Origin: Mitsuaria sp. GD03876
GTDB lineage: Bacteria; Pseudomonadota; Gammaproteobacteria; Burkholderiales; Burkholderiaceae_C
Reading direction: 5' to 3'
Assembly: GCF_029840635.1 (NCBI RefSeq)
Contig: NZ_JAOCCU010000057.1
Span: 1-38,606, forward strand
Length of the DNA: 38,606 nucleotides
The notes below the pieces were generated by a model. That model ran no database searches. It saw nothing but the letters and a program-made list of their open reading frames with translations, and was not told the DNA's origin. The position numbers and the translations under genes are program-made. This document shows positions 2,088 to 13,121 of the stretch, one piece after another; position 1 is the stretch's first letter; every line of letters starts with the position of its first letter.

Positions 2088-3152
2088 ATGACGACAGTGA
2101 AAAGCTCTCTCCCCCTGCTCGCGGGGCTGGTCGCCGCGCTCGCGCTGACCGGCTGCGTCACGACGCCGACCTCGACGCCGCCCTTGAACGAGCCCCCGCC
2201 GGGCAAGACCGCCGCGCCGACCGCGACCGGCGAGGTGATCGCCCGCGGCGACCGGCTGCTGATCTACGTGCCGGTGGCCGGCGAATCGCTGCGCGGCATC
2301 GCCGGCCGGCTGCTGGGCAGCGAGGACCGGGACTGGCAGATCAGCGAGGCCAATGCCGGCGCGACCAAGGTCGACCCGGGCCAGCCGCTGATCGTGCCGC
2401 TCAAGCCGATGAACCCGCTGGGCGTGCACGCGGGCAGCTACCAGACGGTGCCGATCCTCTGCTACCACCGCCTGGGCACCACCGGCGGCAAGATGGCAGT
2501 CTCCCCGTCGAACTTCGCCGCCCAGATGGAATGGCTGGCCAAGAACGACTACCGCGTGATCAAGCTGTCGCAGCTCAGCGGCTACCTCGAGGGCAAGGAA
2601 CCGCTGCCGCCGAAGTCGGTCGTCGTCACCTTCGACGACGGCTACGAGTCGGTCTACAAGTTCGCCTACCCCGTGCTGCGCAAGCTGGGCCTGCCGGCGA
2701 CGATGTTCGTCTACACCGATTTCGTGGGCGCCGGCGGCGACGCGGTCAGCTGGCCGCAGCTGGCGGAGATGCAGGCCTCGGGGCTGATGGACATCCAGTC
2801 GCACTCCAAGTCGCACCGCAACCTGATCGAGCGCACCACCGGCGAGAACGAGGAACGCTACAAGCGCAACCTCGACACCGAGACCGCCGGCCCGCGCGAC
2901 CTGATCGAGCAGAAGCTCAGCACGTCGGGCCAGGTGCGCCATTACGCCTATCCCTTCGGCGACGCCAACGAGCAGGTGCTGGACGCGCTGACGCGCCAGA
3001 AGTACACGCTGGCGGTGACAGTCAACCCGGGCGGCAACGCCTTTTTCGCGCAGCCGCTGATGCTGCGCCGCACGATGATCTTTGGTGACCATGACCTCGA
3101 GGCCTTCAAGGCGCGCTTGCAGACCAGCAAGCGCACGGGGGCCGCGCCATGA
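2088..3152 (+). CDS. LysM-containing polysaccharide deacetylase lipoprotein
   Basis: 354-aa predicted lipoprotein with a NodB-type (carbohydrate esterase 4) deacetylase domain. The signal peptide ends in a lipobox with Cys23 (LTGC). A LysM-like segment lies at about 58-106 (a GESLRGIAGRLLG core ending in QPLIVPLKP), suggesting glycan or peptidoglycan binding. The catalytic domain shows TFDDGY at 181-186 (base and metal Asp), the metal-binding H-x3-H at His239/His243, and a later YAYPFGD motif, so all main CE4 motifs are present. Its start lies 9 nt after the kinase stop, and its TGA overlaps the ATG of the next gene by 4 nt, so the three genes are probably one transcript. A role in trimming peptidoglycan or an exopolysaccharide near the secretion apparatus is inferred from context; the substrate cannot be read from sequence. 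PgaB-like proteins share the fold but belong to poly-GlcNAc loci, which are absent here. Confidence 0.85.
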   Translation: MTTVKSSLPLLAGLVAALALTGCVTTPTSTPPLNEPPPGKTAAPTATGEVIARGDRLLIYVPVAGESLRGIAGRLLGSEDRDWQISEANAGATKVDPGQPLIVPLKPMNPLGVHAGSYQTVPILCYHRLGTTGGKMAVSPSNFAAQMEWLAKNDYRVIKLSQLSGYLEGKEPLPPKSVVVTFDDGYESVYKFAYPVLRKLGLPATMFVYTDFVGAGGDAVSWPQLAEMQASGLMDIQSHSKSHRNLIERTTGENEERYKRNLDTETAGPRDLIEQKLSTSGQVRHYAYPFGDANEQVLDALTRQKYTLAVTVNPGGNAFFAQPLMLRRTMIFGDHDLEAFKARLQTSKRTGAAP

Positions 3153-7687: not shown

Positions 7688-8572
7688 TCAGGAGCGGCGT
7701 GGCGCCATCGGCCGGATGCGTCGGGCCGGCGTCGGTCCGGCCTCCAGCATGTCCTGCATGCGATCGCCGGCCTGCGCGATGAGCGGCTCGATCAGCGCCG
7801 CTTCCGGCAGGTTGGCCCAGTAGCGACGCGGCATCTCGCGCTCCATCATCGCGACCTTGAGCCGCGCCGGATTGAAGATGCTGCGGTAGTAGGTCAGCCA
7901 CAGCGCGGCGCCGGCGTCCGGCGCGGGCGCGTCCTCGCGACGTCCGCCCGGGCCGGTGCGCAACACGCCGCCCTCCCACGACACCGAACAGCGCGGCGAC
8001 AGGATTGTCCCGCGCAGGTTGGCGAAACGCCGCGCGAAGAAGGGCGCCGCCGCCTCGAGCACGTGATGCTCCGGCTCGAACCACGCGACGAGGCGCTCGC
8101 CATCGCCGTCCTCGACCGGCACGAAGCGCACGAAGGCATGGGTCTTGTGGATCTCGCGGCTCACCTCGCGCGCGAGCCGCTGCGCCTGGCGGCGATCCGC
8201 GTCCAGCGTGTCGCGCCAGGTGTCGGGATCGGCCTTCAGGCGCCACAGCAGCCGGTACATCAGCGTGAAGCGCTGCGGCTCGCGATGGAGCAGGGCGGAT
8301 CGGCACAGCGTCAGGAAGCTGGCCGGCACGGTCAGTCGCGACGAGGCGTCCACGGGCGCCGCGGCGTCGCTCGATCCGTCATCGTCGTTGCGCTTGATGC
8401 CGCCCTGGCCGTCCTGGCTGTCGATCGGTTCTGGCTGGTCCCACAGGTCCACGCCGTCATCCGCGGTGGTCCACGCGACGTCCTCCGGGTGGACGCCCTG
8501 CGACAGCAGCCGGCGTGCGGCCTGCCGGAAGCCGTCGACATCGATCGGGCCGTCGAGCCTGACGCGAATCAT
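7688..8572 (-). CDS. TIGR03915-type probable DNA metabolism protein (radical SAM partner)
   Basis: 294-aa soluble protein resembling TIGR03915 (SAM_7_link_chp), a family that travels with a radical SAM protein and is sometimes fused to a uracil-DNA-glycosylase-like domain. Recognisable blocks include LTLMYRLLWRLKADPDTWRDTLD, a REVSREIHKTHAFVRFVP strand, a WFEPEHHVLEAAAPFFARRF segment and a WLTYYRSIFNPARLK motif near 235-250. The protein ends about 60 residues later with no glycosylase domain, so this is the short, unfused form. Its ATG shares one base with the TGA of the radical SAM gene (TGATG), so translation is coupled and the pair should form one transcript from the LexA-box promoter at 9944-9959. 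The biochemical activity of the family is not established. Confidence 0.82.
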   Translation of the reverse strand: MIRVRLDGPIDVDGFRQAARRLLSQGVHPEDVAWTTADDGVDLWDQPEPIDSQDGQGGIKRNDDDGSSDAAAPVDASSRLTVPASFLTLCRSALLHREPQRFTLMYRLLWRLKADPDTWRDTLDADRRQAQRLAREVSREIHKTHAFVRFVPVEDGDGERLVAWFEPEHHVLEAAAPFFARRFANLRGTILSPRCSVSWEGGVLRTGPGGRREDAPAPDAGAALWLTYYRSIFNPARLKVAMMEREMPRRYWANLPEAALIEPLIAQAGDRMQDMLEAGPTPARRIRPMAPRRS

Positions 8573-9918
8573 CAGAACAGGCCCATCTGCACGGGGACGG
8601 CCGGCGCGGCGGACACCGCCGGCGCGGCCGGCATCGACCCCGGCGGGGGCACCCGGGTCGGCATCGGCATCGGCATCGGCATCGCTGAGGACGAAGGGCG
8701 CGGTCCCATCGCGATCGGCCCGGGCCGGTGCCCGTCGACGACCACGAAGGGCAGCACCTTGCGCGCCGGCACCTTCAGCCGGCCGAGGTCCTCCGCCCGC
8801 AACCGTCGCACGCGGCGCGCCGCGATCAGCTTGTCCACCGAGCCGACGCCGAGTCCCGGCACCCGCAGCAGCAGCTCCCGCGGCGCCTGGTTGAGGTCGA
8901 CCGGGAAGCGCTCCGGATGCGCGAGCGCCCAGGCGTGCTTCGGATCGACATCCAGCCGGAGCAAGCCGCTGCCGTCGTCGACGATCTCCTCATGGCCGAA
9001 GCCGTAGAAGCGCATCAGCCAGTCGGCCTGGTAGAGGCGGTGCTCGCGCACCAGCGGCGGCGCCTTCAGCGGCAACGCGCTCGCCGCGTCGGGAATCGGG
9101 CTGAACGCCGAGTAATAGACGCGCCGCATGCGAAAGCGCCCGTAGAGCGCGGCACTGCTGCGCAGGATGCTGCGGTCGTCGCTGCCGTCGGCGCCGACGA
9201 TCATCTGCGTGCTCTGGCCCGCCGGCGCGAACCGCGGTGGCGCGGCGGGCCGCGAGGCCGCGCCCGGGATCACGCGGATCGGCACGGCCTTGGCCTCGCG
9301 GCGCGCCTCCTTGGACTCGTCGATGTGCAGCCGCAGCCGGCCCATCGAGCGCTGGATCGCGTCGGTGTCCTTCTCCGGCGCCAGGTCCTTCAGGGCGGCG
9401 TCGGTCGGCAGCTCGACATTGATGCTGAGGCGGTCGGCGTAGCGGCCGGCGCGGCTGAGCAGCTCGTCGCTGGCGTCGGGAATCGTCTTCAGGTGGATGT
9501 AGCCGCGGAAGTCGTGCGTCTCGCGCAGCAGCTGGGCCACGCGCACGACCTGCTCCATCGTGTGGTCCGGGCTCTTCACGATGCCGCTGCTCAGGAAGAG
9601 CCCCTCGATCATGTTGCGGCGGTAGAAGTCGAGCGTCAGCGCCACGACCTCCTCGACGCTGAACTTCGCCCGCGCGACGTTGCTCGACGAGCGGTTGATG
9701 CAGTACAGGCAGTCGTACTGGCAATGGTTGGTCAGCAGGATCTTCAGCAGCGAAATGCAGCGGCCGTCGGGCGCGTAGCTGTGGCAGATGCCCATGCCCT
9801 CGGTGGAGCCCATGCCGGTGCCGCCCCGGGAGTCGCGCGTGTCCGTGCCGCTGGACGCGCACGACGCGTCGTACTTCGCGGCGTCGGCCAGGATGGCCAG
9901 CTTGCGGTCGAGGTCCAT
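8572..9918 (-). CDS. Putative DNA modification/repair radical SAM protein (TIGR03916-like)
   Basis: 448-aa radical SAM enzyme. Cys66, Cys70 and Cys73 form the CxxxCxxC cluster motif in NHCQYDCLYC, which binds the [4Fe-4S] cluster that cleaves S-adenosylmethionine. Start MDLDRKLAILADAAKYDASC matches the family opening. An alternative TTG at 9939 would add seven residues and is less likely; no clear Shine-Dalgarno precedes either. A helix-hairpin-helix DNA-binding segment lies at about 355-395 (LLLRVPGLGVGSVDKLIAARR). A Pro/Ala/Met-rich tail follows and ends in VQMGLF at the C-terminus, a good match to the bacterial sliding-clamp motif QxxLF. A consensus LexA site lies 25 nt upstream. The family (rSAM_link_UDG) is predicted to act in DNA repair, and the SOS site plus clamp motif support that; the reaction is unknown. 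Confidence 0.88.
   Translation of the reverse strand: MDLDRKLAILADAAKYDASCASSGTDTRDSRGGTGMGSTEGMGICHSYAPDGRCISLLKILLTNHCQYDCLYCINRSSSNVARAKFSVEEVVALTLDFYRRNMIEGLFLSSGIVKSPDHTMEQVVRVAQLLRETHDFRGYIHLKTIPDASDELLSRAGRYADRLSINVELPTDAALKDLAPEKDTDAIQRSMGRLRLHIDESKEARREAKAVPIRVIPGAASRPAAPPRFAPAGQSTQMIVGADGSDDRSILRSSAALYGRFRMRRVYYSAFSPIPDAASALPLKAPPLVREHRLYQADWLMRFYGFGHEEIVDDGSGLLRLDVDPKHAWALAHPERFPVDLNQAPRELLLRVPGLGVGSVDKLIAARRVRRLRAEDLGRLKVPARKVLPFVVVDGHRPGPIAMGPRPSSSAMPMPMPMPTRVPPPGSMPAAPAVSAAPAVPVQMGLF
8660..8683. repeat. Four tandem 6-bp units (GGCATC) in the radical SAM gene
   Basis: Four perfect GGCATC copies encode an alternating Met-Pro stretch in the flexible C-terminal tail of the radical SAM protein. 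Gain or loss of a unit would keep the reading frame and only change tail length, so it is not a phase-variation switch. Confidence 0.85.
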
Positions 9919-9943
9919 GAACTGCGATGGGAATGGCAAATGA

Positions 9944-9959
9944 CTGTATTAATATACAG
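9944..9959 (-). promoter_or_regulatory. LexA (SOS) box upstream of the radical SAM cassette
   Basis: CTGTATTAATATACAG fits the proteobacterial LexA consensus CTGT-N8-ACAG exactly, with the A/T-rich centre. Including the flanking A and T, the arms ACTGTAT and ATACAGT are perfect inverted repeats around TAAT. Its near edge is 25 nt from the ATG at 9918, and on the minus strand the centre gives a possible -10 element (TATATT, 9956-9951), so bound LexA would block this promoter. No + strand gene starts nearby, so the target is the minus-strand radical SAM/TIGR03915 pair. Confidence 0.85.
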
Positions 9960-10024
9960 TATTGAAGCCATTCGACCACGGCTTCCGACCTCGCCACGTG
10001 GTTGCCATCGCTGCCCGGAAAGCA

Positions 10025-11135: not shown

Positions 11136-11267
11136 CACGTCGGGATTCGAGCGGGGTGGAGTATGAAACAGCGACAAGCCCCCGGCAGGTGACTTTCGTT
11201 CATTGAAGGCCCCGTCCCGACAGGCAAACATCCCATGCCAGTCTCTCGAGGTCCCAAAGGCAGCATC

Positions 11268-13121
11268 ATGACCCTCACCCTGCGCGCGGTGTCGCTCAAC
11301 GACCTGCCCTTGACGCAGCCCATCACCGCACGCTTCGACGCCGCCGGCGGGACCATCGGTCGCGCGGACCACAACACGATGGCGCTGCCCGACCCCGAGC
11401 GCCACATCTCTCGTCAACAGGCCGAGATCAGCGCCGAAGCCGGCGGCTACGTGATCCGCAACGTCGGCAGCGCCAATCCGATCACCGTCTCCGGCCAGGC
11501 CGTCGCGCAGGGCCAGGCCGTGCCGCTGCGCCACCTGGACGAGGTGCGCATCGGCGGTTACCTGCTGGAAGTGCAGAGCGACCTTGGCGACGACAGCGGC
11601 GCCACCGTCATCCGCCGCGCCCCGGACCTGGCCCGGCCGGTGACCCAGGGCCCGACGCCGATGCCGACCGCCACGCCCACGCCGTTCCCGGCCGCGGCGC
11701 CGGCGGCGCTGTCGAGCTCCAACCCGTTCGCCGACCTGCTCGGCGGCACGCCGCCGCCGCCCGACATCTTCAACACCACGCCGGTGGCGCCGCCGCACGC
11801 GTCGCCGTTCGCCGCGCCGCCGGTCCAGGCACCGGCCGCGCCTGCCGCCGGCCCCGCGCTGCTGCCCGACGACTTCGACCCGTTCGCGCCGCCGCCGGCT
11901 CCGTCGGCGCCGGTCCGGGCCTCGGGCGCCGCCTTCGACCCGTTCGGCGGTCTGGACCTGCCCGCGGCCCCGACCGCGCCCGTCGCGCCGCCGGCGCCCG
12001 CCAACGACCTCGGTTTCGGCGGTGCCTTCGCCGACCTGGTGCCGGGCGACGGCAACCGCTCGCTGGACGACCTCTTCGGCCTGAAGCCGGGCGGCAACGA
12101 TCCGCTGGCCGGGTTCATGGCCGGCGCCCCGACGGCCGCCGACGCCGGCGCGCGCGACGGCCTGGCATCCGATCCGCTGGCGCTGTTCGGTGCCGCGGCC
12201 CCGGCCACGCACACCGAACCGCAAACCCCCGCGCTGCCGGACCACACGCCGGCGCTGCACTCGTCCTTCCGCCCGCCGGAGGTGCGCACGCCCGCGCCGC
12301 CGCCATTGCCGCCGGCCCCCGCGCCGGTGCCGCCCGTGGCCGTGCTGCCGCCCGTGATGCCGCCAGCGGCCGTGCTGCCTCCGGTCGCTCCGCCCGTGAC
12401 GATGCCCCCGGCGATGCCGCCCGCGACCGTGCATGCGCTGCCGACCGCCGCCGCCGCGCCGGTCGCCTCGGGGCAGGCTGCCGACACCGCTGCGCTCTGG
12501 AACGCCTTCTGCGAAGGCGCCGGGGTGCGCATGGCCGCGCCGCCGCAAGGCCTGAATCCCGACCTGATGCGCGTCATCGGGCAGTTGCTGAACGCGTCGG
12601 TCGATGGCGCGCTGCGGATGATGGCGGTGCGCGCGGCCACGAAACACGAGTTGCGCGCGCAGGTCACCGTGATCCGTTCGCGCGACAACAACCCGCTGAA
12701 GTTCTCGCCCGACCCGCAGTCCGCGCTGGAGCAGCTGCTGCAGCCGCCGGTGCGCGGCTTCCTGCCGGGTCCGGCGGCGATGCAGGACGCGATGCGCGAC
12801 CTGGTCGGCCACACGATCGGCACGATGGCCGGCACGCGCGCGGCGCTGGAGGGCGTGCTGACGCGTTTCCAGCCGTCGGCGCTGGAGGCCAAGCTGACCA
12901 GCCGCTCGGTGCTGGACAGCGTGCTGGCGATGAACCGCAAGGCCAAGCTCTGGGAGCTTTACCTGCAGCACTTCGAGTCGATCCGCGACGAGGCGCAGGA
13001 GGACTTCCACACGCTGTTCGGCAAGGCCTTCCTGGAGGCCTACGAGGACCAGCTCGAGCGGCTGAGCCAGCACGGGCAGGGCCCGTCGTCGACCCCACAA
13101 ACACAGCAGAGCGGGGCCTGA
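11268..13121 (+). CDS. tagH: T6SS FHA-domain protein TagH
   Basis: 617-aa cytoplasmic protein. The N-terminal FHA domain (about 1-95) has GRADHN at 31-36 and HISRQQAEI near 46-54; FHA domains bind phosphothreonine. A very Pro/Ala-rich linker with repeated short DPF/ADL-type motifs follows (about 115-425). The C-terminal helical domain (about 430-605) matches the T6SS FHA (TagH/ImpI) C-terminus, including FCEGAGV, NPLKFSPDPQSALEQLL and a late LYLQHFESIRDEAQEDFHTLFGKAF block. ATG 11268 has AAAGG 7 nt upstream, better than the ATG at 11235. In Pseudomonas the homologous FHA protein is phosphorylated by PpkA and dephosphorylated by PppA; both partner types are in this window. The conserved FHA His after SR is Gln here (SRQQ). 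The phosphatase starts 39 nt downstream. Confidence 0.92.
   Translation: MTLTLRAVSLNDLPLTQPITARFDAAGGTIGRADHNTMALPDPERHISRQQAEISAEAGGYVIRNVGSANPITVSGQAVAQGQAVPLRHLDEVRIGGYLLEVQSDLGDDSGATVIRRAPDLARPVTQGPTPMPTATPTPFPAAAPAALSSSNPFADLLGGTPPPPDIFNTTPVAPPHASPFAAPPVQAPAAPAAGPALLPDDFDPFAPPPAPSAPVRASGAAFDPFGGLDLPAAPTAPVAPPAPANDLGFGGAFADLVPGDGNRSLDDLFGLKPGGNDPLAGFMAGAPTAADAGARDGLASDPLALFGAAAPATHTEPQTPALPDHTPALHSSFRPPEVRTPAPPPLPPAPAPVPPVAVLPPVMPPAAVLPPVAPPVTMPPAMPPATVHALPTAAAAPVASGQAADTAALWNAFCEGAGVRMAAPPQGLNPDLMRVIGQLLNASVDGALRMMAVRAATKHELRAQVTVIRSRDNNPLKFSPDPQSALEQLLQPPVRGFLPGPAAMQDAMRDLVGHTIGTMAGTRAALEGVLTRFQPSALEAKLTSRSVLDSVLAMNRKAKLWELYLQHFESIRDEAQEDFHTLFGKAFLEAYEDQLERLSQHGQGPSSTPQTQQSGA

Follow-up and report, generated by a model that had tools for sequence, protein, structure and literature searches.

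A LexA-type operator and a clamp-binding-like tail in a radical SAM–DUF4130 gene pair of Mitsuaria

Annotations give the TIGR03916 and TIGR03915 families a putative role in the repair or modification of DNA, and we know of no reaction for either. TIGR03916 is a radical S-adenosylmethionine (SAM) family which we take to be equivalent to COG4277. The available excerpts of PMC8565304 place a COG1573–COG4277 operon, encoding a uracil-DNA glycosylase (UDG) and a radical SAM protein, in the SOS regulons of Bacteroidetes, Verrucomicrobia, and Alphaproteobacteria, while those of PMC7739468 mention an unspecified radical SAM protein in SOS regulons of Gram-positive bacteria and Balneolaeota. Earlier links of these families to the SOS response are contained in the excerpted parts of PMC8565304 and PMC3765255. 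Here we analyze a two-gene locus, a TIGR03916 radical SAM gene followed by a TIGR03915/DUF4130 partner gene, in a window of DNA from Mitsuaria sp. GD03876 (contig NZ_JAOCCU010000057.1, positions 1–38,606 of the forward strand). Since SOS control of the family is already published for other groups (PMC8565304, as excerpted), the SOS part of this work is an extension; its new point is a clamp-binding-like motif in the tail of the radical SAM protein.

The Mitsuaria locus has counterparts in several described systems. The UdgX (TIGR03914)–TIGR03915 fusion contains the same DUF4130 half, and in relatives its fused forms adjoin the radical SAM gene of this family, whereas the partner in the window ends after DUF4130 at 294 residues and the one UDG of the genome belongs to family 4. 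ImuB, Pol IV, and Pol V are SOS proteins that bind the beta sliding clamp; they are SOS-induced and carry a short clamp peptide of the QL(S/D)LF or QLxLxL type, both of which are predicted for the window’s radical SAM protein, but they are polymerases or adaptors whereas the window protein is a radical SAM enzyme. The COG1573–COG4277 operon, as excerpted in PMC8565304, shares with our locus the radical SAM family and apparent control by the lineage’s own LexA motif. It differs in that the motif here is CTGT-N8-ACAG, of the Burkholderiales type, and that the locus has no UDG (UdgX) module, nor does the genome at the family cut-off.

The gene pair and its operator

The radical SAM gene occupies 8572–9918 on the minus strand, with its ATG at 9918, and encodes 448 residues that score 549.4 bits against TIGR03916 (rSAM_link_UDG; NCBIfam cut-off 343.5) and also match Pfam Radical_SAM. 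Its partner, at 7688–8572 on the same strand, encodes 294 residues without a UdgX domain and scores 188 bits against TIGR03915 (cut-off 112.25) and 117 bits against Pfam DUF4130 (cut-off 27; residues 99–257). A prior sequence-only reading of this DNA had assigned the two genes to these families, and both assignments hold. The overlap and the box that it described are likewise present in the sequence: a TGATG at 8570–8574 (8574–8570 as read on the minus strand), in which one base belongs both to the radical SAM stop codon and to the start codon of the partner, and a CTGT-N8-ACAG box 25 nt ahead of the radical SAM ATG. The core of this operator, CTGTATTAATATACAG, lies at 9944–9959, separated by positions 9919–9943 from the A of the ATG, and is embedded in the extended palindrome GACTGTATTAATATACAGTA (as on the + strand) at 9942–9961.

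It is this extended, AT-rich palindrome that distinguishes the site, unlike the bare pattern, although no exact CTGT-N8-ACAG other than the operator core occurs in the window. We scored the window with a 20-bp LexA matrix whose six training sites come from SOS genes elsewhere in this genome, the focal site being excluded; two of the six stand before lexA and one each before recA, imuA, a gene for a UvrD/PcrA/Rep-type helicase, and a radical SAM gene of the PA0069 family. The focal site scored 32.9, against 10.3 for the runner-up in the window and a maximum of 19.9 over 100 Markov-1 random windows. The genome encodes a single LexA, and the two boxes before lexA are imperfect. The pair therefore has what is expected of a LexA regulon member, since a box stands at its promoter and its genome encodes LexA. 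We consider LexA control of the pair very likely, with LexA predicted to bind at 9942–9961. Elsewhere in this genome (contig C68, locus L210, around position 3110), one further strong site, a TACTGTATGCGCATACAGTA palindrome, follows a fur-like gene and, as judged by eye, has no clear target.

Operators ahead of orthologous genes

We analyzed the best 80 of 528 relatives confirmed in a genome scan, so shares such as the 62/80 of UDG-bearing loci reported below are not population shares. The region from −150 to +6 around each radical SAM start was searched for operators. Loci and genomes (numbered with the prefixes L and G) were assigned by hand, on the basis of their record titles, to Burkholderiales (n = 30), Alphaproteobacteria (n = 30), and Xanthomonadales (n = 18), with L042 (Methylovorus) and L065 (unclassified Pseudomonadota) outside these groups. 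CTGT-N8-ACAG with at most one mismatch precedes 27/30 of the Burkholderiales genes, against 31/1440 background tiles and 1/30 for the reversed pattern. The alphaproteobacterial LexA motif GTTC-N7-GTTC (PMC8565304, as excerpted) was found exactly, on either strand, at 29/30 alphaproteobacterial loci (background 3/1411; reversed pattern 1/30), and L065 has this box too. Among Xanthomonadales, the palindrome GTCTCA-N5-TGAGAC was present with at most two mismatches at 14/18 loci, 13 of them with at most one (background 1/853; reversed 0/18).

Closer to the window, 12/16 genomes of its genus carry the gene, and all 12 loci, the window’s included, have the box, positioned at −34 to −42 and with one mismatch in four of the 12. 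Three of 20 genomes from the rest of the family have the gene, each with the box (L189 is apparently identical to L085 of the 30), and the radical SAM gene exceeded the cut-off in 0/24 genomes from the rest of the order, where one weak match occurred. The sequence-only reading had held that LexA regulates the pair, and would have abandoned this if the box were missing before orthologues. Its recurrence in the order, the genus, and the family, together with the alphaproteobacterial counts, supports the claim. As read from these sequences, control is retained before the same gene and the operator switches with the lineage.

Copies on mobile elements comprise two loci in IMG/VR, 10 phage records, and 158 plasmid records with a match; loci were taken from seven of the 40 plasmid records listed among the 158 and from one of the 10 phage records, and the viral loci examined were L212 and L221. 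In L221, a faecal phage-labelled contig, CAAACAAATGTTCG lies upstream of the radical SAM gene, one mismatch from CGAACN4GTTCG, which is the Gram-positive LexA box according to excerpts of PMC9578287. Orthologues from Luteibacter and Rhodanobacter (L072, L082, L086, L091) have no convincing operator of the three kinds, and some of them show a GGCACCAT-like stretch immediately 5′ of the start.

The Xanthomonadales palindrome extends beyond this gene. With at most one mismatch it was seen before the radical SAM gene at L067, L070, L073, L075–L080, L083, L090, L092, and L093, and before DNA-repair genes at L107, L110, L136, L156, L166, L167, and L169. The genes behind it in various genomes are those for TIGR03916 and PA0069 radical SAM proteins, uvrA, recA, imuA, umuDC, the TIGR03817 helicase, and mraZ. 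Exact copies are rare, occurring in 19/41 genomes of one order at 0–4 per genome (control pattern 3/41). When one mismatch was allowed, a single Stenotrophomonas genome held 13 sites against 0 for the control, six of which precede TIGR03916, uvrA, TIGR03817 helicase, PA0069 radical SAM, imuA, and mraZ-like genes; the remaining seven have no clear target. In other genomes 13/32 sites lie before recognizable repair, replication, or division genes, including recA, dnaB, and mraZ, as judged by eye with four confirmed by family. This share counts against a clean palindrome regulon, as does G054 with eight sites against five for the control at one mismatch. The form GTCTCAGGTTTTGAGAC, found in four genomes (G046, G048, G049, G060) and including the dnaB site, may be a repeat and would weigh in the same direction.

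The lexA genes of Xanthomonadales, presumably those named LexA1 and LexA2, were inspected by eye in eight genomes; boxes of the form TTAGTAGTA(A/T)TACTACTAA were present in five and TGTACAAATGTACA in two, one overlapping, and no box was recognized at lexA in G054 or G073. We rejected the palindrome as an ordinary LexA box because the boxes seen at lexA genes there, TTAGTAGTAATACTACTAA and TGTACAAATGTACA, are of another form. One umuDC operon has a one-mismatch palindrome next to a TTAG-type box. G073 combines a lexA gene lacking a recognized box with a palindrome at its recA, so a LexA role is possible for that genome. The excerpts of PMC9578287 mention two lexA regulons in Xanthomonas.

The radical SAM tail, the DUF4130 partner, and the glycosylase

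In an alignment of 38 orthologues, C66, C70, and C73 of the CxxxCxxC motif (9700–9723, minus strand) are invariant, as expected for a radical SAM motif, and C20, C45, and C54 are likewise invariant. Residues ~343–375 (8794–8892, minus strand) contain the conserved APRE-LLRVPGLGV and are helical in the AlphaFold model, where the predicted local distance difference test (pLDDT) exceeds 90. We presume this segment to be helix-hairpin-helix-like, a label with no database match behind it.

Past F391 the sole invariant residue of the alignment is a glutamine, Q444, which sits in a low-complexity tail of variable length; most rows continue with xxLF, and those of Bradyrhizobium and its kin with a QLxLxL-like form. 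The window protein ends in QMGLF (8575–8589, minus strand) after a low-complexity linker. The consensus peptide for beta-clamp binding in bacteria is of the QL(S/D)LF or QLxLxL type, and the location of such a motif in a disordered end gives the radical SAM protein the sequence features expected of them. The strict motif occurs in the last 45 residues of 76/80 tails, no more than 12 residues from the end in 73, and the four remaining tails are near matches (QLSLL in two, QLSFF, and QIELPF). Controls gave 22/638 internal pieces and 1/80 partner tails, and 500 shuffles of the tails gave a mean of 3.4/80 and a maximum of 11/80 with the motif. Nine further relatives, drawn from Bacteroidota, Bacillota, Gemmatimonadota, Pseudomonadota, and two virus-labelled contigs, have the motif by eye, strictly in six and nearly in three (QLLLDF, QLSLF, QLSLW, QLSLGF, and others). 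Recruitment of the radical SAM enzyme through predicted clamp binding is thus probable. A search of the open-licence literature found no paper joining a clamp-binding motif, radical SAM, and the sliding clamp, which does not imply absence from print.

A similar tail recurs in another radical SAM family. PA0069 and Rv2578c proteins, which we take to be SplB-like and to correspond to COG1533, resemble the window protein in the radical SAM domain, the SOS box, and a C-terminal Q..LF-type motif, and one of them is encoded in the same genome behind a box of its own. They form a separate NCBIfam family, whereas the window protein is a TIGR03916 member with its own DUF4130 partner; it matched neither the PA0069 nor the Rv2578c model at E up to 1e-3, both models being in the library. 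The tail motif was present in 27/29 PA0069-family proteins (L002, L222–L249), 16/29 of which come from the window’s genus, under a pattern that also accepts QLSL and with L251 lacking a readable frame. A LexA-type box precedes 24/29 of their genes, in Burkholderiales.

At 80/80 loci the radical SAM gene is followed on its own strand by the DUF4130 gene, with a gap of at most 25 nt in 56/80 (estimated starts). UdgX-type sequence follows DUF4130 or is fused to it in 62/80, comprising 58 loci flagged automatically as fused and L019, L046, L051, and L084, where the UDG sequence fell outside the flag; L019 was confirmed as fused, and three fused proteins that were checked scored 294 to 342 bits on TIGR03914. 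The other 18 loci have no UDG sequence (14 Burkholderiales, three Xanthomonadales, and Methylovorus). On a quick 95-row tree, UDG presence requires a minimum of seven state changes, a count blind to gain versus loss. The operator is present at 15 of the 18 UDG-less loci, the exceptions being L025, L060, and L042, which suggests that the radical SAM and DUF4130 proteins form the core. This fits the proposal of the sequence-only reading that the pair may function without a glycosylase.

That reading had also found no glycosylase fused or adjacent to the pair, and we agree: the partner stops at 294 residues and the genome’s UDG is a family-4 enzyme (TIGR00758; 199.5 bits, cut-off 125.3) encoded on a different contig. 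This enzyme is the sole TIGR03914 match of the genome, at 149.6 bits (cut-off 189.95), and it lacks the KxRxH loop that fused relatives possess. UDG sequence was found at 0/12 loci of the genus, which extend ~0.5 kb past the partner. G006, of the same genus, has a stand-alone UdgX ~390 kb from its pair, with no TIGR03916-kind radical SAM gene within ~5 kb of that UdgX. A TIGR03914 match of some strength occurred in 39/40 genomes searched, over the cut-off in two, and the radical SAM gene in 16/60.

Structure searches returned radical SAM folds for the AlphaFold model of the radical SAM protein. MiaB, TsrM, AprD4, HydE, LIAS, and others all appeared at similar weak E-values, so no chemistry was read from the fold. 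In a sequence search of the PDB, DUF4130 had two matches, neither of them significant (E 0.15 and 0.59), and the radical SAM protein had none at E up to 0.01. An origin of DUF4130 among DHH/RecJ proteins (DHH/DHHA1, Cdc45) was suggested by a VIA second look and not by Foldseek, and we keep it as a lead only; profile comparison with eight RecJ sequences gave 0.1%, the same as an unrelated comparison. Elsewhere in the window, a type VI secretion FHA protein, TagH (TIGR03354), is encoded at 11235–13121, 1.3 kb upstream of the pair, and we saw no link between them.

A proposed role on damaged DNA

We lean towards a model in which the pair provides an SOS-induced, clamp-recruited radical SAM activity on damaged DNA, with DUF4130 as the constant partner and UdgX as an optional one. 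DNA damage would lead to cleavage of LexA and production of the pair. The QMGLF peptide, on its flexible linker, would recruit the radical SAM enzyme to replicating or stalled DNA, where the helix-hairpin-helix-like segment may grip the DNA and a 5′-deoxyadenosyl radical would be used on the damaged base. DUF4130 may handle the DNA or the lesion, or hand it over. In most of the relatives examined, UdgX would supplement DUF4130 by binding or excising a base resembling uracil, and the window’s organism, without UdgX at the cut-off, would use the two-protein core. That the substrate is a DNA lesion we consider fairly likely. For the chemistry, direct reversal of the kind performed by spore photoproduct lyase is our first choice, but it is a guess that we hold to be rather doubtful.

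Several observations weigh against this model. Bare CTGT-N8-ACAG is not enriched, either in the window (7 matches with at most one mismatch, 8.3 expected) or in the 6.36-Mb genome (17 exact matches, 23 for the reversed control), and we gave it no weight as evidence. A promoter scan found no match to the sigma-70 consensus at the pair’s promoter. Operators were not found at L018, L025, and L060 (Burkholderiales), at L071 (Alphaproteobacteria), or, among Xanthomonadales, at L072, L082, L086, and L094, the last with just 16 nt of upstream sequence, no box was recognized at L042, and the two-mismatch match at L091 is probably due to chance. The counts are not independent events, since many of the rows, in particular those of Bradyrhizobium, are closely related. 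In the AlphaFold model the motif-bearing tail is disordered (pLDDT <50), as is the stretch 18–58 that holds three invariant cysteines, so the motif and these cysteines are sequence arguments. Foldseek gave no confident fold match for DUF4130. Some of these points would suit a chance or vestigial palindrome, with the pair regulated otherwise or acting on RNA or free nucleotides, namely the lack of enrichment of the bare pattern and the Luteibacter and Methylovorus orthologues without a recognized operator. We judge this explanation highly improbable, as the focal matrix score lies far over the random-window maximum and lineage-matched operators precede the same gene in three groups.

The pair might instead be an accessory to uracil excision that prepares or presents bases to a UDG, with the family-4 enzyme serving in trans in Mitsuaria. 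UdgX-type sequence at 62/80 loci and the family-4 gene on another contig agree with this, and PMC8565304, in its excerpts, assigns the operon to base excision repair by a UDG. We nevertheless find it unlikely given the 18/80 UDG-less loci, with at least seven state changes and the operator kept at 15/18; moreover, TIGR03914 matches in 39/40 genomes against the radical SAM gene in 16/60 indicate that ordinary UDG does not track the pair. Another account makes the pair a factor of mutagenesis rather than repair, riding the clamp like ImuB or Pol V and altering a template base for a translesion polymerase. The patchy occurrence of the gene (12/16 in the genus, 3/20 in the rest of the family, and 0/24 in the rest of the order over the cut-off) speaks against such a factor, which SOS control, the clamp-like motif, and the presence of imuA behind the same kind of box in the genome would favour; we regard it as improbable.

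A wider proposition goes beyond the favoured model of a clamp-recruited radical SAM activity. It holds that the TIGR03916–DUF4130 pair and the PA0069 family are both clamp-recruited for damage-induced radical chemistry on bases, that damage control of both is retained strongly enough to persist in Xanthomonadales behind another palindrome, and that this palindrome belongs to an undescribed second damage regulator; on this our judgement is evenly balanced. If confirmed, the palindrome would add one more damage-responsive operator to the LexA boxes.

The comparative evidence suggests when the pair is needed, namely upon DNA damage, across groups whose LexA motifs differ. The clamp motif, if real, would tell where TIGR03916 and TIGR03915 proteins work, at the sliding clamp. 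Together, timing and place would narrow the search for the substrate and make the workplace of a radical SAM enzyme testable. The UDG-less form would represent a two-protein core that may be reconstituted without a glycosylase in the reaction.

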